DNA from: Opitutaceae bacterium
GTDB lineage: Bacteria > Verrucomicrobiota > Verrucomicrobiia > Opitutales > Opitutaceae
Reading direction: 5' to 3'
NCBI GenBank assembly: GCA_025360455.1
Contig: JANYCF010000169.1
Coordinates: 1-39,889 of the forward strand
Length of the DNA stretch: 39,889 nucleotides
A program made the translations under genes and the position numbers. The notes beneath the pieces are model-generated. The model saw nothing but the letters and a program-made list of their open reading frames with translations, ran no database searches and was not told the DNA's origin. Below are positions 427 to 26,600 of the stretch, in pieces; positions within the stretch are counted from its first letter, which is position 1; each line of letters begins with the position of its first letter.

Positions 427-1634
427 TTAATATTTCGCGGTCGGCTTGATGACGTAATTCCATTCACCGTGAAACTTGGATCGTTCCAGATTCACTCCTT
501 GCATTTCTTGATTGGTCACCTTCCGGCCCAGCGGGTACTTGCGCCGGTCTAAGCGACACCGCACCTGCAGGCCTTTGGCGGTGGTGGTTTTGGCGATGAG
601 GTTGACGATGGTTTCATAGTCCCGCAATGGCTCACCGCGCCAGTTCGAGGAGATGAAGGAAAAGAGGCGGTGTTCGATCTTGTTCCATTTGCTCGTGCCT
701 GGGGGGAAGTGACAGATGGCCAGAGCGAGATTGGTCTCACCGGCAAATTTTTGCAGTTCCAATTTCCAAAGCCGTAGGCGGGAACCATTGCTGCCGCCGC
801 CATCGGCCGTGATGACAATCTGGTTGGCCTGCGGAAGAGGTGTCGGCCTTCCGCCCGCCACCAACCGCGGATGGACGCCACCGCGAAGGCGGCGGTATCA
901 TGGTCGGTGCCGACGTTGACGAAGCCGGCGTTCAGGCCCAAATCATAAATGCCATAGGGATAAGCCCGCGGCACGGTGGGTCCAGGAAAGTCATGCCCAC
1001 TGACTTGGCGCGGTTGTTTGGCGGCCAACCATTGCCGGCCCCCATTGGCATAGTTGCCGATCAGTTCCTTTTTCTTGGTGTCGACCGAAATCACCGGCAG
1101 TCCGGCGGCAAGCGTCTTCTTCACACAGGTGTTGATATGCCGAAATTGCGCGTCCCGGTCTGGATGATCGGCCCCTTCCTTGGTTTTTCGATTACCCTGC
1201 AGACTGTAATTTTGGGCGTGCAAGAGTTGAGCCACCTTGACGTAGCTGACCGGATGTTTTTTTCGCGTCAGTTCCGCCGCCAAGGTGCGCGTGCTCTTGC
1301 AGATCCAACGCAAAGGTGATTCCGGATCGCCTCGCGTGCCAGAATCAATCAGCGACTCCAAGGCTGGCAGGAGTGCCGGATTAGCCACGGTCAACCGTGT
1401 GCGGCCTCCCCCAGCGCGGCGAATGCGCTCCGCAGGGAGTCGTGGGGTGGCTTGAATATCGTGCAGGCCCTTCGCGATCGCCTTCCGCGACAAACCACAG
1501 GCCCGGCGAACCAGCGAAATTCCGCCATGACCCAAGCCCATCGCCTCACTCGCCGCAAGAACCCGTCGGGTACGCTCATTTAGGAGCGGCCAAACGGATT
1601 TAAATTTTCTCCGCAGTTCCACGAGATGACTCAT
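427..1634 (-). pseudogene. ISAzo13-family transposase, broken by a single-base frameshift
   Basis: Read from the ATG at 1634, the first frame gives a DDE transposase N-terminus with the first catalytic Asp in VISVDTKKKELIGNY and then VGTDHDTAAFAVASIRGWW. The match to the family stops near base 865. It resumes in another frame (stop at 427-429) with QIVITADGGGSNGSR, which carries the second Asp, and CHFPPGTSKWNKIEH, which carries the catalytic Glu. Together they make about 400 residues, the family's usual size. Joining the frames needs a one-base change in the G-rich stretch around 855-880. No classic slippery heptamer is visible, so inactivation or a sequencing error is more likely than programmed frameshifting, though the latter is not excluded. 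Confidence 0.85.
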
Positions 1635-1691: not shown

Positions 1692-2270
1692 CTAAGCACG
1701 TGAGTTCCAAACCGAAATCACCGGGTTTGACGCGGAATGAGGATCGTGCCCGAGAATACTGATCGAGGCGGTGTCCAAGGTGAAATGCCGACCGGCCAAC
1801 AACGGCAGCCCGATCCATCGCACCGCCAAAGCGCGCAGGAAATGTCCGTGCGAAAACACCGCTACCGTTCCGTCTTGCAGCCGCAACGCCGCCAGCACGC
1901 GATCCGCGCGTTGAGCAATATGCGCCACTGATTCGCCGTGCGGACAACCTTGTTGAAAAATATTCCAATCCGGCTGCTGTTCACGAATGGCCACGCTCGT
2001 CTTGCCCTCGTAGTCGCCGTAATCCCATTCCACCAAATCCGGTACGTTTTTAGCCACGGACCCAAAACCGGCTAACCCGCAGGTCCGGCTCGCCCGCTGG
2101 AGCGGACTTGTGAGTACATGGGTGAATGCCAGCCCCTGGAGCCGCTCACGCAGTTGTATCGCCTGGCGCTGGCCGTTTTCCGTGAGCGGCACATCGGTGC
2201 GACCGGTATGCTGCCCCGTAAGAGACCACGCGGTTTCCCCGTGTCGGATGAGATAAATCTGCGTGGGCAT
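1692..2270 (-). CDS. Histidine phosphatase family protein (phosphoglycerate mutase-like)
   Basis: 192 residues. The N-terminal LIRHGETAW contains the family RHGE motif (phosphorylated His at residue 10), followed by TGRTDVPLTENGQRQA. The second conserved His is in FSHGHFLRALA near residue 142. These are the hallmarks of the branch-1 histidine phosphatases (GpmB/CobC/SixA-like). Length is normal, and nothing indicates a true glycolytic mutase, so the substrate is unknown. It is the last gene in the minus-strand lipid cluster, 108 bases after the OleB-like gene, and could be part of that transcript or a separate housekeeping gene. Its stop codon lies 3 bases from the IS end. Confidence 0.85.
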   Translation of the reverse strand: MPTQIYLIRHGETAWSLTGQHTGRTDVPLTENGQRQAIQLRERLQGLAFTHVLTSPLQRASRTCGLAGFGSVAKNVPDLVEWDYGDYEGKTSVAIREQQPDWNIFQQGCPHGESVAHIAQRADRVLAALRLQDGTVAVFSHGHFLRALAVRWIGLPLLAGRHFTLDTASISILGHDPHSASNPVISVWNSRA

Positions 2271-2378: not shown

Positions 2379-3257
2379 TTAGATATGCCCGGCGATGGTT
2401 TTGAGGCAAAAATCTTTGGCATCTTCCAAAAGGTAGTGCCCGGCTTCGTCGAGGTAATCGGCTTTGGCGTCGGGCAAAAGTTTTTGCCAGCGGTCGAAGT
2501 AATGCCGGTTGAAACAAAAATCTTTTCCGCCCCACAGAATCCGAACCGCTTTCGTACGGAGCTGCGGCAAGGCCTGTTCGATCTTCGCGAGCGCGATATC
2601 GTTGGGCTGGCCGGTGTTCTTTGGGATATCGCGGACGAACCGATGCGTGGCAATCCGGTTGGCCCAGGAATTGTACGGAAAGAGAAATCCGTTTTTGACG
2701 GGCTGCGGTAAAGGCTGCGTCACCGCCATCCAAGTGGCGGGCCAGGCAAAGCCGTTGAAACCACGCACCGCGATTTCGCCGATCAGCGGAATCCGGCAGA
2801 AACGAATGCTCGCCGGTATCACCGTATCTGCGAAGGCGGCTGTGTTCAGAATCACCACTCGACCGAGCTTATCCCCCAACGGCAGCATCGTGCCGAGTCC
2901 GATGGGCCCGCCCCAGTCGTGGACGATCAAGTGAATTTTCTTCAGCCCAAGACTCTCGATCAACGCGGTGAGATTATTGATGTGATTGCCCAGTGTGTAA
3001 TCGTAATCCTGCGGTTTGTCGGACAGCCCGCAGCCGAGATGATCCGGGACGATGCAGCGCATCCGATCCCGCAGCGCCAAGACGACGTTGCGGTAGAAAA
3101 ACGACCAGGTCGGATTGCCGTGCACCATGAGCACCGCTTCGTCACTGCGCGGACCTTCATCCAGATAACTCAAGGCCCCTGCCCCGGTCTCAAATGATTT
3201 TGGGGTGAAGGGATAAATCTCCTTCAGCCAGGATGGAATTTGCGCGGCGGTTACCAT
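2379..3257 (-). CDS. oleB: OleB-like alpha/beta hydrolase (haloalkane dehalogenase-like fold)
   Basis: 292 residues with a haloalkane-dehalogenase-type alpha/beta hydrolase fold. HGNPTWSF (about 46-53) forms the oxyanion-hole loop, VHDWGGPIG (about 112-120) carries the nucleophilic Asp, and DEAGHYLLED near the C-terminus carries the catalytic His. In the Ole pathway this family (OleB) is a beta-lactone decarboxylase that yields a long-chain olefin from the lactone made by OleC. The OleB assignment rests mainly on context: the ATG overlaps the TAA of the OleA-like gene by 7 bases (ATGGTAA), implying translational coupling. No OleC or OleD is present in the window, so its substrate may differ. 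A dehalogenase or another hydrolase is the alternative reading from sequence alone. Confidence 0.75.
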   Translation of the reverse strand: MVTAAQIPSWLKEIYPFTPKSFETGAGALSYLDEGPRSDEAVLMVHGNPTWSFFYRNVVLALRDRMRCIVPDHLGCGLSDKPQDYDYTLGNHINNLTALIESLGLKKIHLIVHDWGGPIGLGTMLPLGDKLGRVVILNTAAFADTVIPASIRFCRIPLIGEIAVRGFNGFAWPATWMAVTQPLPQPVKNGFLFPYNSWANRIATHRFVRDIPKNTGQPNDIALAKIEQALPQLRTKAVRILWGGKDFCFNRHYFDRWQKLLPDAKADYLDEAGHYLLEDAKDFCLKTIAGHI

Positions 3258-4288
3258 TCGAGCGCCAGCATCAGGCTATTGATTCCACTGCCAATGCCCA
3301 GCAAGGCTACTTTCTGTCCGGCGCGAACGGCACCCTGCTCCACCGCCAGCGCCAGCGTCGATGGCAGAGCGGCCGAGCCGGTGTTGCCGAGCGTTTCAAA
3401 ACTGGAAAAATCTTTCGCCAGATCGAGTCCGATGGTTTCGTACAGTTTCCGGCGATGGGTTGAGCCGACTTGGTGGCAAATGATTTTATCCGGCGTGTCT
3501 TTCGTCCAACCGGTTTCCGCCTCGAAGGCTTGCCACGTATTCTTGGCGACCTCCACGCCGGCGAGCAGCAATTGCTCGGAGTCGGTCTGCATGTCGAGCC
3601 CCTCACCTGCACTGTCGCCCTGACACAATTCGCTATGCTGCGTGGCGGCCAGACAACTGCCGGAGAGCAAGCGATGCCTCGACGCACCGGAGGGCAACAT
3701 ATTTTCGTGACAAACGATCGCGGCCACCGCCGCCGAACCGATCGTGAGATTGGCGAAGAAAGGTTTGATGGCGTTGCGATCCAGCGGCGCAGTGAGCAGA
3801 TGTTGGAGCGTCCGGTCCACCAAGGGCCGACCGTTCTCTCCTGATACGACCATGCCGCAGCGGATTAGCCCGGCGTCAATCATCGCGGCCAACGTCACCA
3901 AGCCGTTGAGAAAACCCAGACAAGCGTTCGACAGATCGAAAACCTGACACTGCGCACCGAGACCAATCTTATGATGAGCAAACGATGCGGTCGCCGGCTC
4001 CAGCATATCGCGGCAGACGGCGGAATGGATCAGCACCTCGACCTGCGCGGCAGCGACGCCGGATTTTTTCAGCACGGTCCGGCCGGCTGCGGCGCTGGCA
4101 TCGGAGGGCTTGGTGCCTACCGGCCACATCCGGCGTTCCTTGATGCCAGTCATCAGTTCCAAGCGACCGGCCGGCAGTTTGAGTCGTTCGTAGAGCGGAC
4201 GCAGCCGTTCCTCGATGTCGGCGGAGGTCCATTTCTCCTCGGGCAAGGCGATGGCGAGCGATTCGATGCAGGCATGGGCGAATTTCAT
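3251..4288 (-). CDS. oleA: OleA-like 3-oxoacyl synthase III (head-to-head acyl condensation)
   Basis: 345 residues from the ATG at 4288; a TTG two codons further upstream is possible but less likely. The protein has the thiolase-fold KAS III layout and matches OleA in detail. SAVCRDMLEPATAS contains the Glu (about residue 97) that distinguishes OleA from FabH. DLSNACLGFLNG holds the nucleophilic Cys (about 123). ICHQVGSTH holds the His (about 272) and TLGNTGSAALPS the Asn (about 302). It ends LLGIGSGINSLMLALEW, as OleA does. OleA joins two fatty acyl thioesters by non-decarboxylative Claisen condensation into a 2-alkyl-3-ketoacyl product. It lies downstream of a FabI-like gene across a 154-base gap with a palindromic repeat and overlaps the OleB-like gene. 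It may use unusual acyl chains made by this cluster; that is inference. Confidence 0.85.
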   Translation of the reverse strand: MKFAHACIESLAIALPEEKWTSADIEERLRPLYERLKLPAGRLELMTGIKERRMWPVGTKPSDASAAAGRTVLKKSGVAAAQVEVLIHSAVCRDMLEPATASFAHHKIGLGAQCQVFDLSNACLGFLNGLVTLAAMIDAGLIRCGMVVSGENGRPLVDRTLQHLLTAPLDRNAIKPFFANLTIGSAAVAAIVCHENMLPSGASRHRLLSGSCLAATQHSELCQGDSAGEGLDMQTDSEQLLLAGVEVAKNTWQAFEAETGWTKDTPDKIICHQVGSTHRRKLYETIGLDLAKDFSSFETLGNTGSAALPSTLALAVEQGAVRAGQKVALLGIGSGINSLMLALEW

Positions 4289-4335
4289 GCGCAATGGGTC
4301 CTATATCCCAGAGCTAACTCCGGATTGTTTGAAGT

Positions 4336-4412
4336 GTAGGAACTTGCTTGCAGGCGACTCACAGCGTGGCCCGTTAGCGTGCGTGCCGAGTCGCCTGTAA
4401 ACAGGCTCCTAC
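4336..4412. repeat. REP-like long inverted repeat between the FabI-like and OleA-like genes
   Basis: Two 25-base arms (4336-4360 and 4388-4412) are near-perfect inverted repeats, starting GTAGGA and ending in GCAGGCGACTC or ACAGGCGACTC when read inward, around a 27-base loop. The pattern is that of dispersed intergenic palindromes (REP/BIME-like). No T-tract follows, so a simple terminator is unlikely, but the hairpin could stabilise or attenuate the cluster mRNA. Confidence 0.8.
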
Positions 4413-4442
4413 CACAAGGCGAAAACATCGCGGACTTGAATC

Positions 4443-5303
4443 TCATTTTGAAACTTGTCCCTTCGCACTTGATACTTGCACCGCCGAAGGCGGTGCTTCG
4501 GGCCTCATCGCGAGGCGGATGACTTCTTTGTCGAAATAATTGGCACCCAGACCGGCGTCGACAACGAGTGTGGTGCCGTTGATGCCGCTGCTGCGTTCGC
4601 TGAGGAGGAACAGGGCGACATTCGCGACTTCCTGCGTGTCGAGTGCGCGTTTCCGCAAGGTGAGTTTCTCGGCGAACAGATAACTCTCGAGATAGCCGGG
4701 AATGCCGGCCGAGGCGCTCGTCTTGAGCGGACCGGAACCGACGACATTGAAACGCACTTCGCTGTCGCCACTGAAAGATTTTGCCAAGAATCGAGTACAG
4801 GAATCCAACGCGGCTTTGATCGGTCCCATGTAACCGTAGTTATCGGGGGTCACGAGCAGCGAAGAAATTCCGATGGTCACCACCGAAGCATTGCGTGCCA
4901 GATGCGGTTTGAAAGCGCGGGCCATTTCCACGAGGGAGAAGGCGGAGATGGCGGTGGCCTGGAGGAAATCCTTCCGGTTGGTCTCGGCGAAGGTCTTGAA
5001 TCCGTCGCTGTAGTTAGCGAAGGCGAGCGAATGCACGAGACCATGCAACGGCGCAAAACCCGCCGCCGCTACTTCCGTGGCCAATCGCTCAACGGTGCCT
5101 TCTTCTTCCACATCACAAATAAACACCGGCCGGTCCGCGAGCAGACTTTCCAAGGATTTCTTTCTCGCCTCGGAACGCACCGCGTAGATCACGCGCGCTC
5201 CGTGGGCTTCCAGTGATTTGGCGATGAACCAGGCGACGCTTTTCTTGTTCGCCACGCCCTGCACGAGGTAGGTTTTCCCCGTAAGTTGAAGGAAGTCGGA
5301 CAT
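4443..5303 (-). CDS. FabI-like enoyl-ACP reductase (SDR family)
   Basis: 286 residues. [21 protein letters not shown] near the N-terminus is the cofactor-binding loop characteristic of FabI, and [10 protein letters not shown] follows. The [13 protein letters not shown] segment has the Tyr-x6-Lys pair at residues 156 and 163, identical in spacing to E. coli Fab[16 protein letters not shown] matches the substrate-loop region. The extra tyrosine found in E. coli FabI at position 146 is isoleucine here, so catalysis or substrate may differ. The family reduces trans-2-enoyl-ACP with NAD(P)H. It starts one base after the FabZ-like stop codon, so the two are clearly co-transcribed. It may be a cluster-specific reductase or the cell's housekeeping enzyme. 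Confidence 0.85.
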
Positions 5304-5304
5304 G

Positions 5305-5751
5305 CTATTTCGTGGTCACTTGACCTTCGGGTGCTTTCCAAGCGACTGAAAATTCCACGGTCAGAATCCGTTTTTCGCCGCATTTAATCGCGCCGCTCAT
5401 CATGTGGAATCCGCCCATGGTTTCTTTGCGCTTCACCTCGATGAGGGTGGTATCGCCGGGATAAACGGGATTGCGAAAGCGCACCTCGTTGACCTTGGCG
5501 AGCAGTGGCACGCCCCCTGCCCCGCCTTGGCCGGCATGGAGTCGGGCCATGAGCAGTGCGCCAGTCTGAAACACCGACTCGCACAGCAACACGCCGGGCG
5601 TAATGGGCGCTCCGGGATAATGGCCTTTGTAGAAATCCTCGTCGGCTCGCCAGGTGCGGCGGGCGACGAGAGTTTCGCCTTCATGCGAAACGATTTCGTC
5701 CACGAAGAGAAACGGCGGACGGTGCGGGATGAGTTGTTGGACTTCGTTCAC
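5305..5751 (-). CDS. FabZ-like 3-hydroxyacyl-ACP dehydratase
   Basis: 148 residues from a GTG at 5751. The frame is open further up to 5829, but that would overlap the preceding gene by 68 bases, and the family N-terminus ([19 protein letters not shown]) begins right at the GTG. The hot-dog fold active site is visible as [20 protein letters not shown], with catalytic His at about 44 and Glu at about 58, the 14-residue spacing of FabZ. It would dehydrate 3-hydroxyacyl-ACP to the trans-2-enoyl form for the FabI-like enzyme one base downstream. It lies 10 bases after the FAD oxidoreductase gene. Whether it accepts special polyunsaturated or cyclised chains cannot be told from the sequence. Confidence 0.85.
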
Positions 5752-5761
5752 GGTGGGAAAA

Positions 5762-7213
5762 TTAAACGCCGGTGGACAGGACGGCACGCTTCTTGGCGGC
5801 GAGTGCTTTGTCGATCTGATTGGCGACAATTACGCCGTAGTTAATCGTGCCGAGCCAGCCTGACATTATGATGCCGACAGAGCCAGCGTGGTAAAGTCCC
5901 GGGAGCTGACCGGGTAAATCCATCGAAATTTTGAGCCCTTCGAATTTGGTGCCGAAGGACGTGCCACTCCAATGCCGGGTGTAATACTCGATGGTGCGTG
6001 GCGTCGCCGCCTCCATCCAGTCGATCTTGCCCCGTACAGCGGGAATGTAGCGCTCCAGCGCCGCGATGGATTCGTCGATCAACCGTTGCTTCTCAATCGC
6101 GTACTGCTCCGGTGAGAGGGCATTCCAGTCTTCGTACTTCGCATTGATCGAAACGACGACGGTGTAGCGATCCAAGCCCGGACGCGTATCCGGATAATAC
6201 ATCGAGAACGTCCGGCTGGTGGTGTGGAGATCGACGAGCTTTTCACTGGAGAACTTCGGTTCGTCCGAGGTGAACACGAGATCGCCAATATGAGGCAGCG
6301 ACTCGCCTTTTTTGATGCCTAAATAAACTTGGCAGGAACTGGTGTTAACGCGCACGGCCTTGGTCAGGGCCACGAATTCGGGGGTAAAATTTTCTTCGCC
6401 CGCGATCCTCAGTACCGTGTTTTTGATATTGGAGTTCGAGAGCACCGCATCACAGCGGATGGTGCGGCCATTGGCCACCACCCCCACGACTTGTTTTTGT
6501 CCGTCATGTTCTTCGGTCAGTATTTTTTCGACAACGACATGCTTGCGGAGTTCGACGCCGTTCTTCTTGAGCTCGCCGGCCATTTTCTTGATCAAGACAT
6601 CCGTGCCGCCTTGAAAGGTGTAGACGCCCTTGCTCATGAAGTTCGAGAACACGATGCCGAAGGTGATCGCCGGATCGTCCATGGTGGAACCGTTGGCGTA
6701 GGCGATCGGCTCCATCAACAAACGTTTCACATCGTCGCGGCCGGGAAAATACCTTTCGAACATCTGGCCTGTCGTCTCGGGATTGTTATCGTAGAAATTC
6801 ATCGCCCGCAGATCGGTGAAGAACCGTTCTACGGTCTCGGCTGACACCTTAAACTTTTCGATCAACTGCCGGGTGAAATCATCGCGATCAAAGGTGGTAT
6901 CGATCTGGAATTCGGGATTGATGAACCGCACTCCTTTTAACTGCACGATGGAGTTGGAGATTTCCTGACTCCAGTATTTGCGCACGGATTTGATCATGCC
7001 GATGGGAAATCCGTGCAGCGAGATATCGAAGATGTGCCCACCCTTGCGGGTGAACCAGGTGGCGAGGCCGCCGAGCTGGTAATGATGCTCCAGCAGGAGG
7101 ACTTTGTGGCCGCATTTGGCCAGCACGTTGGCCCCGGTGAGTCCACCGAGTCCGCTGCCAATGACGACCACGTCATAGTGATCCTCGATTCCTTTGAGCC
7201 AGTCGTAAGCCAT
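5762..7213 (-). CDS. FAD-dependent oxidoreductase, phytoene desaturase / RetSat / CrtISO-like
   Basis: 483 residues from the ATG at 7213; an upstream TTG at 7252 would overlap the previous gene. The N-terminus has the dinucleotide-binding motif [17 protein letters not shown] followed by [16 protein letters not shown], as in carotenoid desaturases, carotenoid isomerases and retinol saturases. The C-terminal FAD motif is [22 protein letters not shown]. Such enzymes desaturate, saturate or isomerise polyene or acyl chains. No carotenoid synthase (CrtB) or isoprenoid gene is nearby. The surrounding FabF, ACP, FabZ and FabI-like genes suggest an acyl-chain substrate, as proposed for the CrtI homologues in anammox ladderane clusters. 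It is tightly packed between the isomerase-like gene (40 bases) and the FabZ-like gene (10 bases). Confidence 0.82.
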
Positions 7214-7253
7214 GAAGGGCCGAAAGTGAGGACTTCCGGAGCGAAAGGGCAAC

Positions 7254-8123
7254 TCAGAGTTTGAGGGCGCGCAAATATTTCAGGCTATCCGGAATACAGG
7301 CGAGCGGTGTAGGGGTTTCGTCCTCGATAAAATAGTGCTGCACGCCAATTTTTTGGGCGGTGCGGAGGACGGAGGGCCAGTCGATTTGACCGGTGCCGAC
7401 GGCCACATTGTCGATCGGGGCGGCACCGCCGGTCGCTAAATGAGTGACGGCCCCCTTGCGGATGTCTTTCACATGCATCAGGGACCAACGCTTGGCGTAT
7501 TTTTTAAGGAGGGTGACGGGATCCTGACCAGCATGGAATACCCAGAAAACATCCATTTCGAAAGTGACCAGTTTCGGGTCGGTTTCGGCAATCAAAATAT
7601 CAAAGGCTGTCTTGCCGCCTTCACTCTCAAACGGGACGAATTCATAGCCGTGCGGATGATAGCCATAGCTGATGCCCTCAGCTTTGAAAGCGGCGCCCCA
7701 TTTGTTGAAATTAGCGGCGGCCTCGTGCGCTTCTTTGGCGGTGAGTCCGATTTTGCCGTCGTGGGGCAGCCACGGGGTCACGGCGTACTTCAGACCAAGC
7801 AGTTTGGCGTTGTGGATCGCGCCGGCGAGATCCTTGACCAGTACTTCATAGCCAAAGTGTGCGCCGACCGGATTCAGACCGCGGTCGTGAATCAGTTTCA
7901 CATACTCCTCAATTGGCACGCTGGGGCTGCCGGCCGCTTCGATTTCGGTAATGCCATAACTTTTCACGAGATCGAGGGCCGCCGGAAGATCGACTTTAAT
8001 CTGATCGCGCAAACTCCAGAGCTGAAGACCGAGGTGCTTGTGGTAATCGACGGCAGCGTTGAGTTGCAGAACACCAGCCAATCCGAGGGCCAGTGAGAGA
8101 AGGATAGTACGGGATATTTTCAT
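7254..8123 (-). CDS. Exported TIM-barrel protein, sugar phosphate isomerase/epimerase-like (AP endonuclease 2 fold)
   Basis: 289 residues. The first 24 form a signal peptide (basic MKISR, a hydrophobic run, then LNA before AVDYHK). The mature part has the xylose-isomerase-like TIM barrel: [50 protein letters not shown] and YFIEDE supply the metal-binding Glu, His and Asp positions typical of this family. Such secreted proteins are common in Verrucomicrobiota and Planctomycetota; the substrate is usually a carbohydrate or keto-sugar but is unknown here. It sits inside the lipid operon with short gaps (21 bases upstream, 40 downstream), so it is probably co-transcribed, but its link to lipid synthesis is unclear and it may be a passenger. 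Confidence 0.82.
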
Positions 8124-8144
8124 GGGGTGGTAGGAAGAAAATCG

Positions 8145-9584
8145 TCAGCCGGAGCTTTTTTGCAAGATGTGATAATTCGCCATCGAGATACCGCTCAACA
8201 TCGCACCAACGATACCCAGAAAACCCTGGTCCGTCCCGCACAGATAGAGATTGCTGAGGTGGGTACGGCCATCGCGGATTTTGCGCGGGGCCCCATAAAT
8301 CGCGCCGTTCAGATGGCCGGTGAATTTTCTCACCGTGCGCGGCGTAAACATGTCCGTGGTCAGCAAATTCTCCGCCAAGATTGCATCCGCGACTTTCGGC
8401 AGGAACCGACGCGCGCTGCGCTGGATTTCCGAGAACCAACGAAGTTTATCCGCCTGATAAAGCCGCTCGTCGAGCCCTGCCCACACGTCGTAATTAGCCA
8501 GACAGGTCACCCGAAATAATCCCTCAGGCAGATCGGCGCCGGCGTAGTCGAAATTATTGGGCAGACAAATCACCCCGCTCCGGGTGTCGACCTGCTTGTG
8601 GGCGCGGACGTAGTCAAACCGTTCGGAATCGTTGAAGAAAATAATCGTGTCGTCGCCCCATCCCCAGCTGGCCGGTGGCTGCTTGAAGGCTAAGATGGTT
8701 TCCACGAATGAAAGCACTCCGGTGTTTGCTTCGGCCGCAATGGTGCGGGCTGGGTCGCACATCCGCATCGTCTCGGGATAACCGGCGGAAGAAATGACGT
8801 GATCTGCCGTGATTTCGGTGCCGTCGTCCAACGTGAGCGCCGCCGCCTTGCCTTCGCGTTCGGTGATTTTCGCGACCCCACATTTCATGCGCCGCTCGCC
8901 GCCGGCTGCGCGATATTTCTCGTGCAACACGCGGATGATTACCCGCACGCCGTCGAGGGGCCGGGCAAATCCTTCAAGATAGAGCGCCTTAAACATGATA
9001 ACGAATTGCCCGAATTCCATATCACGTTCCTGAGCGCTGCCATAGTACATCAACGGACAGAAAATCATATCGGTCAGCAACGGGTCAGTGATATGACGCG
9101 CCACGATGCTGTGCGCTGAGACTGGTTTCGCATCAAGGGAAACGTCATCATAGGTGCGGACGACTTGAACCAAGGCACGCCAGCCCTCGGCTTGCTCGGG
9201 GAACTTCGCCGCGACTTCCGTATCGAGCACCGAAAAATCATTCGTAAACCGCAATGTTGCCTCGCCGTGTCGCCCGAAGGAAATTCTTGATTGCTTCTGC
9301 GGACACAGCGCGAATTCCTCGCGTTCAATCCGCAGTTGGCGTAGGAGTTTGCCCAGTGGCGTTCCCTTCACGCCGGGCGCCACGTAGTTGGTCATGGCGT
9401 GCAACCCGACATCGAATTTTCGCCCGGCGATACTGTAGAAACTGTTCAGCCCACCCGAAGCGTTGTGCCGTTCGAAAATGCAAACCTTCTTCCCGAAATG
9501 TGCCAGCCTGATACCCGCGGCGAGCCCGGACATACCAGCACCAATAATGGCTGCGTCGTAATGGGAGTCTTTCATCTGGGGCAT
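8145..9584 (-). CDS. FAD-dependent oxidoreductase, CrtI/phytoene desaturase-like (second copy)
   Basis: 479 residues. AIIGAGMSGLAAGIRLAHFG and the following FERHNASGGLNSF form the FAD-binding Rossmann motif; the C-terminal LYLCGTDQGFLGIVGAMLSG is the second FAD-contact motif of the CrtI family. It is clearly diverged from the enzyme at 5762-7213, sharing only the family frame. Having two different CrtI-like enzymes in one acyl-ACP cluster is a pattern noted in ladderane-type candidate clusters. An ATG at 9575 is an alternative start, three codons in. It begins 67 bases after the ACP gene, across a small hairpin, and is followed 21 bases later by the isomerase-like gene. Confidence 0.82.
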   Translation of the reverse strand: MPQMKDSHYDAAIIGAGMSGLAAGIRLAHFGKKVCIFERHNASGGLNSFYSIAGRKFDVGLHAMTNYVAPGVKGTPLGKLLRQLRIEREEFALCPQKQSRISFGRHGEATLRFTNDFSVLDTEVAAKFPEQAEGWRALVQVVRTYDDVSLDAKPVSAHSIVARHITDPLLTDMIFCPLMYYGSAQERDMEFGQFVIMFKALYLEGFARPLDGVRVIIRVLHEKYRAAGGERRMKCGVAKITEREGKAAALTLDDGTEITADHVISSAGYPETMRMCDPARTIAAEANTGVLSFVETILAFKQPPASWGWGDDTIIFFNDSERFDYVRAHKQVDTRSGVICLPNNFDYAGADLPEGLFRVTCLANYDVWAGLDERLYQADKLRWFSEIQRSARRFLPKVADAILAENLLTTDMFTPRTVRKFTGHLNGAIYGAPRKIRDGRTHLSNLYLCGTDQGFLGIVGAMLSGISMANYHILQKSSG

Positions 9585-9590
9585 AACAAA

Positions 9591-9612
9591 GGCGGGGTTC
9601 GGCTACCCCGCC
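9591..9612. repeat. Short GC-rich hairpin between ACP and FAD oxidoreductase genes
   Basis: GGCGGGGT (9591-9598) pairs with ACCCCGCC (9605-9612) around a 6-base loop, followed by CTACA. The related GTAGGGCG-type hairpins at 17554-17625 and 18481-18509 share the style. No T-tract follows on the coding strand, so it is more likely a repeat or mRNA-stability element than a terminator. Confidence 0.6.
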
Positions 9613-9651
9613 CTACAATCTCACTGGCATGGCCGCAAATTGCGGCGGCCA

Positions 9652-9906
9652 TCAGGCCTTGGACAGAAATTTTGGCGTCAGATAGGCCGCGCAGCTATCA
9701 AGCGAAGCGAGCTGCACGTAATCGGCCTCGGGCACTTCAATGCCGTGGCGTTTGCGGAGCTCCATGACGATGTCGAGGAAGTCCATCGAATCCAGCTGCA
9801 GTTGATCACGCAGGCGCACATCAGGTTTCACGGCGGTGAGATCTTCGTCCGGGGCAATATCGGAAATGATGTCGATAACCAGTTTCTGGCAGGCTTCTTT
9901 TGTCAT
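9652..9906 (-). CDS. Acyl carrier protein
   Basis: 84 residues, the usual ACP size. The phosphopantetheine attachment site is Ser40 in LQLDSMDFLDIVMEL, a variant of the common DSLD motif with Met after the Ser. Helices are acidic at the N-terminus, but the C-terminus is unusually ...YLTPKFLSKA. The next upstream gene is a KAS II (26-base gap), so this is most likely a dedicated carrier for the cluster rather than the housekeeping AcpP. It would present the growing chain to the KAS, dehydratase, reductase and CrtI-like enzymes. Confidence 0.9.
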   Translation of the reverse strand: MTKEACQKLVIDIISDIAPDEDLTAVKPDVRLRDQLQLDSMDFLDIVMELRKRHGIEVPEADYVQLASLDSCAAYLTPKFLSKA

Positions 9907-9932
9907 AGTGTTGGCGATAAAATCTGGGGCGA

Positions 9933-11171
9933 TTATGTGCGGTAACGTTTGATGATGAGCGTGGAATTGATTCCCAGCATACCAAAGGAATTATTCAGGA
10001 TCGCGTCAACCCGTTTAACGACCTTCGGCGTGTTGAGGATCAGGCCGGGAATATCGCACTGGGGATCAAGCTCATCCACGTTAATCGTGGGGTGCACGGT
10101 GAGGTCGTCAAAGCTGGGCAAATTCCCCGCCAATTCCAGCGCTCCCGCTGCTCCCATCGTGTGGCCGATGAAGCTTTTGGTGTTGTTGATGGCGGGAGGC
10201 TCACGGCGGGCGTGAAAGGCTTTGGCGATCGCCTGGCATTCCTGGATGTCGCCTTGTGGCGTCGATGTCGCGTGAGTGTTCACAATATCGATATCATCGA
10301 CCGTCATGCCCGCATTCATAAGGGCTTTTTGCACACATTCGGCCTGCCGCTCAGGATTGGGCAGCACGTAGTCGGTCGCATCCGAATTCACGCAATACCC
10401 CGCAATCTCCCCATAAATCTTGGCGCCGCGGGCTACGGCGTCCTCCAGTCGCTCGATGGTGTAAATGCAGCCACCTTCGGAAATAACGATACCATTACGC
10501 GCTTTATCGAAGGGACGGCTGGCTTTGGTGGGATCGGCGTGGGTGGCGAGGGCATTCTGGCTCTTGAAACCAGCGAAGATCCCGAAAGTTTGTGGGCTCT
10601 CGCTGACGCCACCGGCGATTGCCAGATCAACCTCGTTTAGCCGTAACATCTGCGCCGCGTGGATCAGTCCGATATTTCCCGCCGCACACGCTGCCCCGAT
10701 GGTATAAGCCGGGCCCGTGGATCCGAGGTTGAGCGATACTTCGCCCGCCGGGCTGTTCGCGACCGTCCTGGGATTGTGATGGTGCGACCAGAACTTCGTG
10801 TCGTAGTTAAATTTCGAGATATTATAAACTTCGTTCTCTGTCTCGACATTGCCGTGTTCGGTGATGCCAAGGTAGACACCGACCCGGCTCTTGTCGCGGG
10901 TTTCGAAAGCGATCCCCGAGTCAGCCAGTGCTTCGCGTGCACAATAAATACTGATGCTGCCGGCGCGGGTGCCGATACGTACGTCCTTTTTCTTTTGATA
11001 TTTCAGCGGGTCGAACTTGCACATGCCCGCCGGCCATTGCCCCATGAAACGCACTTCCGTCATGGCGATACCCGATACGCCGTTGAGCAAGCTATGCCGG
11101 AATTCGGCCAGATTGTTGCCGTTCGGGGCGGTCAGACCAATGCCAGTGATGACGATGCGAGTGTGCTTCAT
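9933..11171 (-). CDS. Beta-ketoacyl-ACP synthase II (FabF-like), cluster-specific
   Basis: 412 residues with a complete KAS I/II thiolase fold. The nucleophilic Cys is at about 162 in YTIGAACAAGNIGL; the two active-site His are at about 300 (VNTHATSTPQGD) and about 337 (NTKSFIGHTMGAAGALE), giving the Cys-His-His triad of an elongating decarboxylative synthase. The loop around 105-140 (ENEVYNISKFNYDTKFWSHH) is rich in aromatic and charged residues and unlike housekeeping FabF. It is the first gene of the minus-strand cluster, starting 69 bases from the divergent galE, and is followed by its ACP. FabF-type synthases of this sort are the marker enzyme used to recognise ladderane-like clusters; whether it belongs to that clade needs a phylogeny. 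Confidence 0.88.
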   Translation of the reverse strand: MKHTRIVITGIGLTAPNGNNLAEFRHSLLNGVSGIAMTEVRFMGQWPAGMCKFDPLKYQKKKDVRIGTRAGSISIYCAREALADSGIAFETRDKSRVGVYLGITEHGNVETENEVYNISKFNYDTKFWSHHHNPRTVANSPAGEVSLNLGSTGPAYTIGAACAAGNIGLIHAAQMLRLNEVDLAIAGGVSESPQTFGIFAGFKSQNALATHADPTKASRPFDKARNGIVISEGGCIYTIERLEDAVARGAKIYGEIAGYCVNSDATDYVLPNPERQAECVQKALMNAGMTVDDIDIVNTHATSTPQGDIQECQAIAKAFHARREPPAINNTKSFIGHTMGAAGALELAGNLPSFDDLTVHPTINVDELDPQCDIPGLILNTPKVVKRVDAILNNSFGMLGINSTLIIKRYRT

Positions 11172-11240: not shown

Positions 11241-12233
11241 ATGAAAGTTCTCGTCGTCGGCGGTGCCGGTTACATTGGCAGTCATTGCGTCCGTCAGCTG
11301 CTCGCTGCGGGCCACGAACCTGTCGTCCTCGACAACTTCATCTACGGTCACCGAGCCGCGCTGACTCCTTCCGTCAAACTTTACGAGGCGAGCATGGCCG
11401 ACGCTGCTGCGCTTGATCGCATCTTCACCGCCGAACGCTTCGATGTCGTGATGCACTTCGCCGCTTACTGCTACGTGGGGGAGTCCGTCACCGCTCCGCT
11501 CAAATATTACCAGAACAACGTCGCCGCGACGCTCACCCTGCTCGAAGCCATGTTAAAGCACGGCGTGAAGAAATTCGTCTTCTCCTCGACCTGCGCGACT
11601 TTCGGCATCCCTGAAAAGATGCCAATGGACGAAAATTTACCGCAGGCACCGATTAATCCCTACGGTCAGACAAAGCTCGATGTGGAGAACATGCTCAAGG
11701 CCTTCGCCCATGCGTACGGTCTGAGTTTCGCCGTCTTCCGCTACTTCAACGCCGCCGGTGCTTCCGAAGATACGACCATCGGCGAGGCCCACGATCCCGA
11801 AACCCACCTTATTCCACTCGCCATCTGGGCCGCGATGGGCACAGCGAAACCTCTGCAGATCTTCGGTAATGACTTCCCTACTCCCGACGGCACTTGCCAA
11901 CGCGATTACGTCCATGTCGACGACCTCAGCCGCGCACATATTGCGGCCTTTGATAAACTTTCTACACCCGGCACGCAGTTATTCTACAACCTCGGAACCG
12001 GTTCACCCACTTCCGTCCTCGAAGTGATCAAAGCCATTGAAAAAATCTCCGGTCTCAAAGTCCCCGCGAACTTTGCGCCCCGTCGGGCCGGCGATCCTCC
12101 CGCCCTCTACGCCGATTCCAGCAAAGCTCAGCGCGAACTCGGTTGGACGCCAAAATTCAAGACGATCGACTCAATCGTCGCCACCGCTTGGCGCTGGCAC
12201 CAATCGCACCCGAAAGGCTACGCCGCCAAGTAA
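11241..12233 (+). CDS. galE: UDP-glucose 4-epimerase
   Basis: 330 residues. The N-terminal VVGGAGYIGSHCVRQLL is the NAD-binding GxxGxxG motif; VMHFAAYCYVGESV and FSSTCATFGIPEKMP follow as in GalE. The catalytic Tyr-x3-Lys is in NPYGQTKLDVENML. RYFNAAGASEDTTIGEAHDPETHLIP and RDYVHVDDL are also diagnostic of GalE. It interconverts UDP-glucose and UDP-galactose in the cytoplasm and could supply the surface-glycan enzymes encoded further right. It is transcribed away from the lipid cluster and followed by a palindromic repeat. Confidence 0.93.
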   Translation: MKVLVVGGAGYIGSHCVRQLLAAGHEPVVLDNFIYGHRAALTPSVKLYEASMADAAALDRIFTAERFDVVMHFAAYCYVGESVTAPLKYYQNNVAATLTLLEAMLKHGVKKFVFSSTCATFGIPEKMPMDENLPQAPINPYGQTKLDVENMLKAFAHAYGLSFAVFRYFNAAGASEDTTIGEAHDPETHLIPLAIWAAMGTAKPLQIFGNDFPTPDGTCQRDYVHVDDLSRAHIAAFDKLSTPGTQLFYNLGTGSPTSVLEVIKAIEKISGLKVPANFAPRRAGDPPALYADSSKAQRELGWTPKFKTIDSIVATAWRWHQSHPKGYAAK

Positions 12234-20633: not shown

Positions 20634-23600
20634 ATGAAGCTATCCCCTGCGACCGATATTTCCCGCGTCTATTCGATCCGAGTCAGGTCTTGGTTTGGTA
20701 TTTTTATCGGCAGCGCGCTAGTTCTGCTGCTTACTTTGTCTGCCAAAGCGGAGTCCCTTGTCGCCGCCATGCCCCTGATCAGCCGAGGCGGGCCCGCCTT
20801 TGCTTCTGGCTCGTCACCCAATACCCCCCCTGCTGCGGCCAATGACGCCAACTATCAGTCGATGTGGGTCTCGGATACATTACCCGCCTGGATCGCCTAC
20901 GATCTTTCCACCGTTCCGGTTGGGCAACGTCAACAAGTACTCGTGGCGTGGTATGCTTCTTGGGCGCTGGGTTACATCAATACCGCACCTGCGCCATCGC
21001 TACAATTGCCCGTCGATTATACGATCGATATTAACTTCGCCGCCGGTGGTGGGAACAGCGCGCCAACCACCGGTTGGCAAACGCTCGTTACCGTAACCGG
21101 CAATAATCGTGGCAGCCGTCAGCATTTGCTGGATCTCGCGGGCGCTAATTGGATTCGCCTTCGCGCTACGGCCGGCTCCAGCCCCACTTCATTCGCCATT
21201 GATCTTGAGGTGCATTCCGCCCCGGCCGGGGCTTCCGACTGTTGGTTGTTCATGGGTGATTCTATCACCGGTTTCGCCGCCTATCTGTTCAGTGATTTGC
21301 CCGGACGGGTCAATGCGCTCGCTCCCGGCCGCTGGCCTGTCGTGGTCCCCGCCGCCATCGGCGGCTCCAACGTCTGGTCGGCCAACGACGTGATCGACAA
21401 TTCCCTCGCACTTTATCCCGGCCGTTATGTCACCCTCAATTACGGGACCAACGGGGGCTCGGCTGGCTTTTCTGCTGCCATGGAAATTCTCATTCAAAAA
21501 GTCGTCGCCGCTGGGAAAATTCCGGTGATCCCCCACATGCCATGGTCCGACATCCCCGATCAATTGACCAAGGCTCCGCTCATCAACGCCCAGATCGATG
21601 CCCTCTATTTAAAGTATCCGGCCATCTTTCACGGCCCCGATCTCTACGCCGCTTTTCTCAATCGCCCGGATTTGATTCCTCCCGGCGATGTCCATCCCAA
21701 TGACGCCGGGAATCAGGAAATGCGGCGCCAATGGGCTTTGGCCATGACCGCCACCACCAATTCCAACCCGACGACGGTAAGCGTGAATTTGGCGCCCGAT
21801 ACGCCAACAGTTGCCACCGGAGCCACTCAGCAATTCACCGCCACTGTTTCCGGCACCAGTAACACCAGTGTGCTCTGGACTATCCAAGAAGGCAGCACTG
21901 GCGGGATCGTCAGTACCACCGGCCTTTATACGGCACCTGCCACTGCCGGCACCTATCATATCGTGGTGACCAGCGTGGCAGATAGTACCAAGTCAGCTAC
22001 CAGCACCGTCACCGTCGCCGCTGCTGTGGTTGTGAATATCACGCCAAGCACGACGAATGTTTCCAGTGGCACGACGCGACAATTCTCCTCCACCGTCACC
22101 GGATCAAGCAATACCAGTGTCACGTGGTCAGTGCAGGAAGGCAGCACGGGAGGTGCGATCAATTCAGCCGGACTGTATTCCGCTCCAAATCCCGCCGGCA
22201 CTTTCCACGTCAAAGCCACGAGTGTGGCGGACACCACCAAGTCAGCCACCGCCACCGTGACCGTGGCCGCTGCGCCTACCTTCACCAGCCCGCCCCAGAG
22301 CCAGCCGGCGTTTGTCGGCACCACTATCACTCTTTCGGCGACTGCGAACAGCACGACTACGCTCACCTACCAATGGCAAAAAGAAGGAATTAATATCCCG
22401 GGGGCCACCGCAAACACGCTCATTCTCCCCAACGCGCAGCTCAGCGATGCCGGCAATTATGCGCTGATCGCCACTAACGCCGCCGGTTCATCCACCAGCC
22501 GTTTCGCGCGACTGGTTGTACTGGTGCCACAACCCAATGCGATCGCCTACGGTACCACCGTTATTTCAACCGGCGTCACCGCGGGCGGGATAGTCAACAT
22601 GGATTACTTCGTGACCAACACCGGCACGAAGGCTTGGGGCACGAATCACTATCTCTCGATCCGGGATGCCAGCGGCACTTTCGTGGCCTGGTCCGCTTTG
22701 ATCGGCGCGCTCCCCGGTGAAAACAAAACAGCCAATCTCAACTTCCCTGCACCGCAGACCCCAGGCACCTACACTTACTTCGTCCAGGCGTTGGAGAACG
22801 GGGTGGAATTTTTCAGCACCCAGACGACCGTCATGCTTACCGTTCTCGCAGTGCAGCCGAATTCGATGACGTACAACACGACAACTTTCCCGATCAGTGT
22901 CACTCCTGGTACGACAATGAATTTTAATTATAATGTCACCAACACCGGCACTAAAACCTGGGGTGCGACGCACCAGCTGGCGTTGAGCGACAGCCAAGGC
23001 GTTTACCTGATGTTCGCCCCGCTGAATGGTGTGGCGGCGGGCCAAAGCAAGACGGTAAACCTGAGCTTCACTGCCCCCCCGGCGCCCGGCGTCTACACTT
23101 ACTCGGTGCAAGGATTGGACAACGGGGTGGAATTTTTCAACACGAAGGCCAATCTGACCTTGATCGTACTTGCGCCGCGGCCGAATGCGATGGTCTATCA
23201 TCCCACGCGCTTCCCCGATGCTGTGATGGCCGGAGCCCAGGTGAACCTGCGCTATTCACTGAGCAATGCCGGCACGCAGACCTGGGGCAGCGGTCATTAT
23301 ATTTCACTGCGTGATGCGAACGGAAGTTTCCTCTCCTTTGTCCCGCTCACCGGCGTGACGGCGGGCGGCAACAGTAACGTCGAGTTTAATTTCACCACCC
23401 CCACCACGCCCGGCATCTACACTTACTATGTCCAAGCTTTGGAAAACGGCATCGAGTTTTTCTCCACACAGGACGTGGTTGTCCTGACGGTGCTCGCGAC
23501 GCCGATGGCCAACGCCATCACGTACAACGCGACTACTTTCCCCGCCACCGCCACACCGGGTGGTACGGTGAATTTCACGAGTAATGTCACCAACCTCGGC

Positions 23601-26600
23601 ACCAAGACCTGGGGTACGAACCATTTCCTCTCACTCCGGGATGTGGATAATAACTTCCTCGGCTTTCTCCCGCTCAGCGGCATGGCTCCCGGTACTAGCA
23701 AAACTTTCAATTTCAGTTTTGTCGCTCCCACCACCACTGGTCTCTTCACATACACTGTTCAGGCCTTGGAATCCGGCATAGAATTCTTCGCAATGGCCGA
23801 CGGCCTGATTCTGAACGTTCCGTTAACCTCCGGACCCTTTACTCCGGTCACGCCTACACCAGTCATCAGCTCGTTCACTGCGAGTCCGACTTCGATTCTC
23901 ATTGGCGGCAGCACCACACTCAGCTGGCTGGCCACGGGAGCCACTTCCGTCTCAATTTCTCCGGGGGTCGGCACCGTTACCGGCACCAGCGTCCCCGTTT
24001 CACCTGCGACCACGACCACGTACACGCTCACCGCGACCAATGCCGCAGGTAGTTCAACGCAAACCTGCACGGTGAACGTTTCCTCTTCCACCCCCACCGT
24101 TACGATCTCCGGTTTCACCGCTATGCCGTCCACCGTTATCGAAGGCAATAGCACCACTCTCAACTGGAATGTCACAGGAGCCACGAGTCTCTCGATCTCA
24201 CCTGGCGTCGGCCCGGTGACCGGTACGAGCATCACGGTTACTCCGGCCACCACGACCACCTACACGCTTACGGCCACGAAAAGTCCGACCACTGTTACCC
24301 AATCCACCACCGTCACGATCACTCCCGTCTCCACGATCGCTCCGGTAATCAGCAGCTTCACCATCGACTCCGCGTCGCTCGCCACCACCGGCATGTGCAC
24401 GCTGCTTTGGGATGTTAAGGGGAATGCGAACCTTTCCATCTCACCCAACGTCGGCCCCGTGACCGGCAACTTGATCGCCGTCTCCCCGACCGCGAACACC
24501 ACCTACACCCTCTCCGCCACCAATGCCCAAGGCACGGTCACGGCCCAGGCCAGTGTGGTCTACAGCGTACCGGCCCTGACTCTTGAAAAAGCCCCGGCGC
24601 TGAAAATTAAACGCGACGATCATGTCGCCACCATCGAGATGGATTTCGACGACACTGCTTGGGCGCAGCTCTGGGATGTCGATACCATCGGACGCAATGG
24701 CTGCGGCTACCGGGTCCAATGGTGGGCCGACGCCACCGCCGTCACCACCATTCTCTCCACCGATGGTTGCACCTCGGAAAATTCCGCTGGCTCCTCTGCG
24801 GCGGTCCCCAACATGTCGTCCCCCCGCCAGCTTGTGACGCCCAATCGCGTGATCCAAATCCAGCCTTTGGCCAACAATGTCCTCTATCACGTCAGCGTCG
24901 TTCGCCTCAACGGTCTCGGGCAAATCTGCAGTCCGCCGACGGAACAAACTTTCAACGGTGGCGATGGCAGCCGCGTCGCGGCGTTGCGGTCAGCGATGAC
25001 ATTCTTCGACGACTTCAATCTGCCGATGGGCGCACCGGACGAGCGCAAGTGGAACAACGCGATGACTCCCCAGACCGATCCTCGCTTCAATCTGTTTTTC
25101 GTCAACGACCAGTGCCATGTGCACACCCTCAACGGCACCCTAAACGAAGCCGCAGGCGACAAGTCCCAAGTCGCCCAGCGCGTGCGCAAACCCATCGCCA
25201 TCGAAACCGGGGTGCGCCGCCGGATCGTTTTCGACATGGATGGGATTTTCAGTCCCCGCGGCGTCTGGTATCTCGATTTCAATCCCGTGAAAGTCGACCT
25301 CACCGGTCACATGAGTTTCTTCGATGATGATGGAGAAAAGGCTCTGCCCGCCGGCGTGCTCCGGTTGAAGGCAGGCAACCAATCCTTTTCCGTGCACATG
25401 ATCAATAATGCCGGGGCATCCTACAAACTCGCCGAGGTCATTCTCTACGAGAAAGGCCGCAAGATGAGTTCAAACGTGCGCCGCAGCTTTGATGTCCGTC
25501 TCGGCACCGATGGCGTACAAGTCTTTGTGGATGGGACGAGTGTGATCGATATTCCCTTTGCTGCTGGTGCCTTCAAGCCCGGCACCTACGACCTGCTCTG
25601 GTCCACCATCGGCTACAACTCCTCGAAGGACAATAATCCGTACTTCTTGTCCCATTGGGACAACTTCGGTTTCGACGGTCCCGACTTGGAACCGCGCGCC
25701 GTGCACAACTACGTTACCCGCATTGAGGGCACCGACTATCAACACGCCAATGCCGGGGAGAATTCGACGCCCACCTTCACGGTAAATATCCCCGACGACA
25801 TCCGGCCCACCGCTCCGGGGGCGACCAGCGAAGCGTGGTTGGTTTTCAATTACATGGTTGATCGCTATAATTACACGACGATCAAAGCCGGTGATCATGT
25901 CCTCGCCAACCTCACCAACTTCGCTTTGCCGCAACCCGCGAACAACACCGCACCGCTCGATCCGACCCTCTCCGCCGTCTGGAATAATCCCACGACGGTG
26001 CGCATCAAACTTGGCGAAGTACAACAGGGCGGAGTTTCGCCACTGCTGGTTGGCAATAATACCTTTCAGTTCTTCGCCGAAAACACCGGCATCCTCAATT
26101 TGCACGTCGAGGTTTTCACTCCCAAGAGCGCCGAGCCGCCTTACACGCCACCCTCCGCCCTGCATCGCGTGCCGATGCACGCCGAACTCCCCAAGCTGGG
26201 GCCACCCGCTCAAATCGTGTTTGTCGACGGCAAGGAAGCAACCGAAGACGGCAAGGGCGGGGCGCAAGGCCCGACCGTATCCGGCAAGACGACCGTCGAA
26301 TGTATCGTGGGGAATTCCAACTGGGCCAATTGGGATCCCCAGCAACTGAATATGCCCGCCAACAGCACCGAAATCTGGAGCAGCGGCGGTACAACCGGCA
26401 TCAAGACGGTCGAACTTTTCCTCCGCAAGAAAGGTGTCACCACCGGCTATGGCGACCGCATCGCGGTGCTCACCACTTCGCGCGACGCCCCCGCCCCGCA
26501 AATCCGCTACGTTTTCGAGGTTGATACCCGCCGCTTTGCCAATGGCGATTACGAGCTCTACGTTCTCGGCACGACCACGACCGGCGTCAAGAGCCACCCA

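Follow-up and report, generated by a model that had tools for sequence, protein, structure and literature searches.

The window analyzed here is a 39,889-nucleotide stretch of DNA that makes up an entire contig (C119) of a 4.85 Mb Opitutaceae metagenome-assembled genome (MAG; 405 contigs, 92.9% complete). It carries a nine-gene array on the minus strand at 2379-11171 that encodes a beta-ketoacyl-acyl carrier protein synthase (KAS), an acyl carrier protein (ACP), two CrtI-like flavoproteins (Crt1 and Crt2), a TIM-barrel protein, FabZ, FabI, OleA, and OleB. We favor, with some reserve, the view that this operon provides the acyl-supplying half of a pathway to long-chain hydrocarbons, joined to the OleA and OleB of that pathway, the product probably being a polyunsaturated hydrocarbon of the C31:9 type. 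The pairing of a fatty-acid assembly line of its own and two flavin enzymes with chain-fusing machinery is found in two bacterial phyla, Verrucomicrobiota and Planctomycetota. The genes, together with the divergently transcribed neighbor, are as follows.

9933-11171, minus strand: KAS, a FabF-like beta-ketoacyl-ACP synthase with Cys/His/His/Lys intact and the clade-specific loop FGMLGIN.
9652-9906, minus strand: dedicated ACP with a PP-binding domain and a DSM phosphopantetheine motif (read from the sequence).
8145-9584, minus strand: Crt1, a CrtI/carotenoid-isomerase-like FAD oxidoreductase, assigned by domain and model matches and by its place in a tree.
7254-8123, minus strand: TIM-barrel protein, IolE-like (AP_endonuc_2, 46.5 bits).
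5762-7213, minus strand: Crt2, a second CrtI/carotenoid-isomerase-like FAD oxidoreductase; the open reading frame opens at 7252 and the likely start is the ATG at 7213.
5305-5829, minus strand: FabZ-like 3-hydroxyacyl-ACP dehydratase, start codon uncertain.
4443-5303, minus strand: FabI-like enoyl-ACP reductase that retains Tyr-x6-Lys (read from the sequence).
3251-4288, minus strand: OleA, head-to-head acyl condensing enzyme; the open reading frame opens at 4294 and the likely start is the ATG at 4288.
2379-3257, minus strand: OleB, a haloalkane-dehalogenase-like alpha/beta hydrolase (Abhydrolase_1, HDWGG motif) and putative beta-lactone decarboxylase.
11241-12233, plus strand: NAD-dependent epimerase, divergently transcribed, which adjoins KAS in several relatives.

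A preliminary description of this DNA had named eight of the nine genes, and domain and model matches place all eight where it put them and on the same strand; the ninth, the TIM-barrel gene between the two Crt genes, had been overlooked. The gaps within the array, described as mostly 1-70 bases, reach about 150 bases between FabI and OleA. A scan for promoters and terminators gave 4 and 8 candidates versus 4.7 and 12.2 in shuffled sequences and, as these counts show no excess, it is uninformative on the transcription unit.

The NCBIfam models for FabF, ACP, FabZ, and FabI all match the corresponding array proteins, every one under its cut-off (the KAS scores 311 bits on the FabF model versus a cut-off of 493.75), and these four proteins are thus divergent members of their families. 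The Cys, both His, and the Lys are intact in the window KAS and in all cluster KASs compared (33/33), in agreement with the intact catalytic triad reported earlier. Two loops, FGMLGIN and TEHGNVE, are also invariant in 33/33 cluster KASs, and LGFGG(H/Q)N and GI-GGM stand at those sites in 5/5 presumed housekeeping FabF proteins (picked by profile). In E. coli FabF, these loops control access to the acyl pocket and form part of its lining. In a tree, the cluster KASs group together (100/100), away from the five presumed housekeeping FabF proteins and from both KAS types of the putative anammox bacteria considered below, in line with the dedicated module first proposed. The window KAS is 67-88% identical to its orthologs in 14 other genomes of the order, where the best other FabF-type match has 31-38% identity to the cluster KAS.

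OleA scores 441 bits on the curated model PRK09258, over the cut-off of 285, and its Glu, Cys, His, and Asn, presumably the residues that carry out catalysis, align with those of the solved OleA-type chain 3fk5; the earlier statement that the catalytic residues are intact therefore stands. By eye the sequence also fits EPxx[AS]x(14,18)DxxNACL, which is given as an OleA pattern in PMC7158056. The top NCBIfam models for OleB are haloalkane dehalogenases, with scores under their cut-offs. For both Crt proteins the closest NCBIfam model is a carotenoid isomerase (78.6 bits for Crt1 and 103.7 bits for Crt2), and because these scores lie far under the cut-off, desaturation and double-bond isomerization are both possible activities. 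A sequence search of solved structures returned distant matches only, a carotene desaturase ranking first for both proteins, and structure predictions had a mean predicted local distance difference test score of 35 for Crt1 (4 rows) and 42 for Crt2 (3 rows).

In the pathway that we propose, the dedicated ACP would carry a chain extended by KAS, FabZ, and FabI with a shared housekeeping ketoreductase, which is assumed because no ketoreductase is found among the array genes. Crt1 and Crt2 would introduce or move double bonds on the ACP-bound chain, and OleA would join a pair of these acyl groups head to head, giving a beta-keto acid. Reduction by OleD, beta-lactone formation by OleC, and decarboxylation by OleB would then give the long olefin, probably the C31:9-type polyunsaturated hydrocarbon, with OleD and OleC encoded at another locus. 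The sequence and the comparison of genomes show the gene set, its intact catalytic motifs, the co-occurrence, and the physical linkage to OleABCD in some Planctomycetota; we infer the action of Crt1 and Crt2 on acyl-ACP, as well as the polyunsaturation and the length of the chain. The later steps follow the described pathway, in which OleA links a pair of activated acyl groups and the product becomes an olefin through OleD, OleC, and OleB (PMC7158056). OleA without OleBCD gives a ketone (PMC6463001). The same paper reports that OleA condenses acyl groups without an acyl-CoA synthetase, and its authors concluded that the in vivo substrate is acyl-ACP.

Crt1 and OleA occur together across the order of the window (Opitutales). 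Note that the genome profile searches score only a few best candidates per genome, and absences are accordingly soft. Among 223 genomes of the order, Crt1 (E<=1e-20) is present in 174 and OleA in 169: 164 have both, 10 have only Crt1, 5 have only OleA, and 44 have neither (Fisher p 4e-31, relatedness ignored). Joint absence is spread over families, being seen in G004 (family f5), in G007 and G089 (f8), and in all listed genomes of f7, f16, and f28. At least 20 assemblies no larger than 1.1 Mb, some of them incomplete, carry both genes. Retention of Crt1 and OleA by most of the genomes sampled in the order, these small assemblies among them, makes it probable that the product is of physiological importance.

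The order of the genes is also conserved. A contig scan probed with the TIM-barrel gene showed the cluster in only four loci (L016, L018, L019, and L032) among the best 80 of 348, all from Verrucomicrobiota MAGs. The window order recurs in L019 and L032 and, up to the contig limits, in L016 and L018; because it recurs in other genomes the arrangement is beyond chance. The TIM-barrel gene, which encodes a protein with a signal-peptide-like N-terminus (from the sequence), sits between the two Crt genes in these four loci and next to Crt1 in L108. Five other stretches from relatives (L126, L127, L128, L129, and L139) gave no match to it; the gene is often missing in relatives and is probably a passenger outside the conserved pathway. 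Among 20 chosen Crt1 stretches of the order, KAS-ACP-Crt1 is present in 16 and is continuous with Crt2-FabZ-FabI-OleA-OleB in five. Fifteen chosen OleA stretches include five in which Crt2-FabZ-FabI-OleA-OleB is a complete locus of its own and 11 in which OleB lies in the same stretch as OleA.

The Ole genes named in the preliminary description, OleA and OleB, are both present, but the set is incomplete, as OleC and OleD found in relatives would complete the pathway. Of 30 chosen genomes, 28 have OleC (NF006754) over the cut-off; the other two are the window MAG and G007, the latter also without Crt1 and OleA. In 11 of 13 fetched OleC stretches OleD, a 3Beta_HSD/epimerase protein, is encoded no more than about 1.1 kb from OleC; the distance is 7.6 kb in L206, and no OleD was found in L208. 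In the relatives of the order, OleC and OleD occupy a locus separate from the array. In the window MAG the gene that lies upstream of OleC in the congener locus is truncated by the end of contig C7 (the match runs to 32917 of 32923), and the downstream neighbor is cut by the start of contig C172 (the match runs from base 54). Owing to the truncation of both flanking genes by contig ends, OleCD of the window MAG most likely falls in an assembly gap. The divergent epimerase at 11241-12233 was considered as a candidate OleD and ruled out, as it scores 78 bits on an OleD profile versus 468-550 bits for OleD proteins.

The best case for treating the two modules as a single pathway comes from their linkage in Planctomycetota. 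In this phylum 97 of 392 sampled genomes have a Crt1 match (E<=1e-15), with best-hit identities of 37-56%. Twenty of the Crt1 stretches were chosen, not at random (one is just 5.6 kb long); 13 have Crt1 and Crt2 together and 11 have at least one ole gene. In three stretches (L295, L298, and L299) a single array holds all ten genes, KAS, ACP, Crt1, Crt2, FabZ, FabI, OleA, OleB, OleC, and OleD, with OleC and Crt1 each split over two frames in L298. A further stretch (L300) matches all ten genes, but its OleA lies about 6 kb away and is truncated where the stretch ends. Because ole genes accompany Crt1 in 11 of the 20 stretches and form ten-gene arrays in three, the two modules look like one pathway. 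Thus, the proposal that a dedicated acyl-building module is tied to head-to-head condensation, made from the window alone, is supported by gene order in relatives, by co-occurrence, and by linkage in Planctomycetota, and the gene order is not limited to the window genome. Within Verrucomicrobiota as a whole, Crt1 is present in 92 of 337 sampled genomes (the order of the window included). In 18 Verrucomicrobiota Crt1 stretches from outside the order, KAS was found only in L228, ACP in L228 and L236, and FabI in L235; with so few partner genes the compact array is not general there. Two further proteins accompany the cluster in some Planctomycetota: a MarR-like winged-helix protein, possibly a regulator, adjoins the cluster in L292 (12764-13513) and L295 (12489-13139), and a zinc-ribbon protein separates OleD from OleC in a pair of closely related stretches (L282, 13623-14597; L283, 5284-6264).

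Several observations weigh against a polyunsaturated product made by joined modules. CrtI-like enzymes carry out many reactions, and the FabI of the operon would permit a saturated chain. Some Planctomycetes have pfa-like clusters, which were proposed in 2011 as a source of olefin precursors in that group and in Deltaproteobacteria (PMC3098273). Of the 16 stretches of the order that have KAS-ACP-Crt1, 11 do not contain OleA, and in three stretches from small genomes (L143-L145) no KAS or ACP was found near Crt1. OleA is present in L228 only among the 18 Verrucomicrobiota stretches from outside the order, and neither an OleC search nor a search of the OleCD region found OleC and OleD in the window assembly.

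Against this background, one might suppose that the Ole enzymes take ordinary chains (saturated, branched, or monounsaturated) and that the KAS/ACP/Crt module only supplies extra or slightly modified chains, for example chains with one double bond. The olefins of Xanthomonas and Stenotrophomonas do come from core chains of type II fatty-acid synthesis (FASII; PMC6463001), and FabI and FabZ of the operon could make saturated chains. However, two CrtI-like genes, each belonging to a two-phylum clade, and a divergent KAS in which two loops are altered and invariant (33/33) exceed what such a pathway should need, and we consider ordinary olefins unlikely. We give still less credence to a separate product, in which the module would make a polyunsaturated or conjugated membrane acyl lipid or a pigment and OleAB would be a mere neighbor. 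The 11 stretches with KAS-ACP-Crt1 apart from OleA, the ten genomes that have Crt1 and no OleA match, and the lack of ole genes in most Verrucomicrobiota Crt1 stretches outside the order are all consistent with such separation. It is at odds with the co-occurrence of Crt1 and OleA over 223 genomes, with the ten-gene arrays of some Planctomycetota, and with five stretches in which Crt2-FabZ-FabI adjoin OleA without KAS-ACP-Crt1.

The preliminary description had called the cluster ladderane-like, a label that does not survive comparison with anammox bacteria. PF18582 (hydrazine synthase alpha) matches 76 of the 392 Planctomycetota genomes, many plainly through other long proteins, and we took genomes with a PF18582 frame of 809-844 aa as putative anammox bacteria, of which there are at least 24. 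None of these 24 genomes is listed among the Crt1-positive ones. When all candidates were scored with a combined Crt1/Crt2 profile, a CrtI-like match was found in 15 of the 16 putative anammox genomes searched. Eight of 12 stretches fetched around such matches (from nine genomes) have FabZ-KAS-KAS-CrtI, with an ACP match ahead in seven of the eight, and these loci fit the published ladderane candidate clusters in kind. In a tree, Crt1 (99/99) and Crt2 (100/100) each form a clade that spans both phyla. The anammox CrtI proteins make up a separate clade (100/100); together with one generic sequence this clade is closer to Crt2 than to Crt1 (94/90), although branch lengths are large and the deep branching is uncertain. 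On the Crt2 profile the main group of these proteins scores 146-170 bits. Of 16 anammox KAS rows, eight have other residues in place of the catalytic Cys and both His, and a radical SAM/B12 gene adjoins CrtI in the sole anammox locus checked (L335), whereas neither a radical SAM gene nor a Cys-less KAS is found among the genes of 2379-11171. Orthology with the ladderane candidates was rejected on the separate KAS, Crt1, and Crt2 clades plus these motif differences. A pathway in which cyclobutane-containing chains are made and then joined by OleA is thus highly improbable, despite the enzyme classes shared with the putative anammox clusters (KAS, ACP, FabZ, and CrtI-like) and the nearness of anammox CrtI to Crt2.

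The acyl-supply module joined to OleA and OleB can be set beside several known systems. With the OleABCD pathway of Xanthomonas, Micrococcus, and Shewanella the operon shares OleA and OleB, the OleC-OleD pair lying elsewhere in relatives and in the same array in some Planctomycetota; the difference is that the acyl supply (KAS, ACP, FabZ, FabI, and two CrtI-like flavoproteins) is encoded alongside. The Pfa synthase plus OleABCD of Shewanella and of Geobacter bemidjiensis, the latter with a pfa-ole array (reviewed in PMC4882568), has the same overall logic of a dedicated acyl synthase feeding OleA, and Pfa synthase has been shown to feed OleA (PMC6463001). In contrast, the array encodes discrete type II proteins and CrtI-like enzymes rather than a multidomain type I synthase. 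A Pfa-type multidomain synthase with tandem ACPs was not found in the window MAG, itself incomplete, where 11 PP-binding matches include at most two per frame. Housekeeping FASII (FabF-AcpP) has the same enzyme classes, whereas the array KAS belongs to a separate clade. The proposed ladderane FASII clusters of anammox bacteria and the Desulfotalea psychrophila clusters also have a FabF-like KAS, ACP, FabZ, and phytoene-dehydrogenase-like genes (PMC2649909), the Desulfotalea likeness resting on the description in that paper. Unlike the putative anammox clusters, the array has KAS and CrtI proteins of other clades and has FabI and OleA/OleB.

A link between polyunsaturated hydrocarbons and the FASII/phytoene-dehydrogenase clusters of Kuenenia and Desulfotalea was drawn by Rattray 2009 (PMC2649909). 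C31:8 and C31:9 hydrocarbons were detected in Desulfotalea and are said there to occur in Planctomycetes, and the Desulfotalea genome is said to encode no known route to polyunsaturated fatty acids. Opitutae are among the classes with OleA homologs (PMC7064751), and in 2017 oleABCD was noted in both large and small Opitutae genomes as a possible carbon store (PMC5673642). The statement that no described pathway combines the two modules holds in part: PMC2649909 and PMC6463001 partly anticipate the combination, and a literature search consisting mostly of titles and abstracts, with few subscription papers covered, returned no description of the array gene set with ole genes. The gene set is a concrete and widely conserved candidate for making polyunsaturated C31 chains without Pfa, and it separates the question of Pfa-free polyunsaturated chains from that of ladderanes. 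More broadly, we regard the chances as evenly balanced that Planctomycetota and Verrucomicrobiota own a Pfa-independent polyunsaturated route, in which a discrete type II synthase, with two CrtI-like flavoenzymes that desaturate or isomerize the acyl-ACP as it grows, is hard-wired to OleABCD for C31:9-type hydrocarbons, and that this route is important enough for Crt1 and OleA to stay in assemblies of about 1 Mb or less.

Other genes of the window and its MAG may be noted. Directly after OleB, on the same strand, lies a histidine-phosphatase gene (1692-2270, minus strand), which had no match in the related clusters searched. An ISAzo13-type transposase (549-1634, minus strand; the match covers positions 3-262 of a 387-position model) lies close to the contig end and possibly caused the contig break. 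On the plus strand, 20634-26684 encodes a 2016-aa protein with Ig, CARDB, and GDSL-lipase domains. Contig C84 of the same MAG (L001-L004) has an unrelated biosynthetic cluster with two big frames of 2405 and 1654 aa, similar to nonribosomal peptide synthetases/polyketide synthases and having two carrier domains each.

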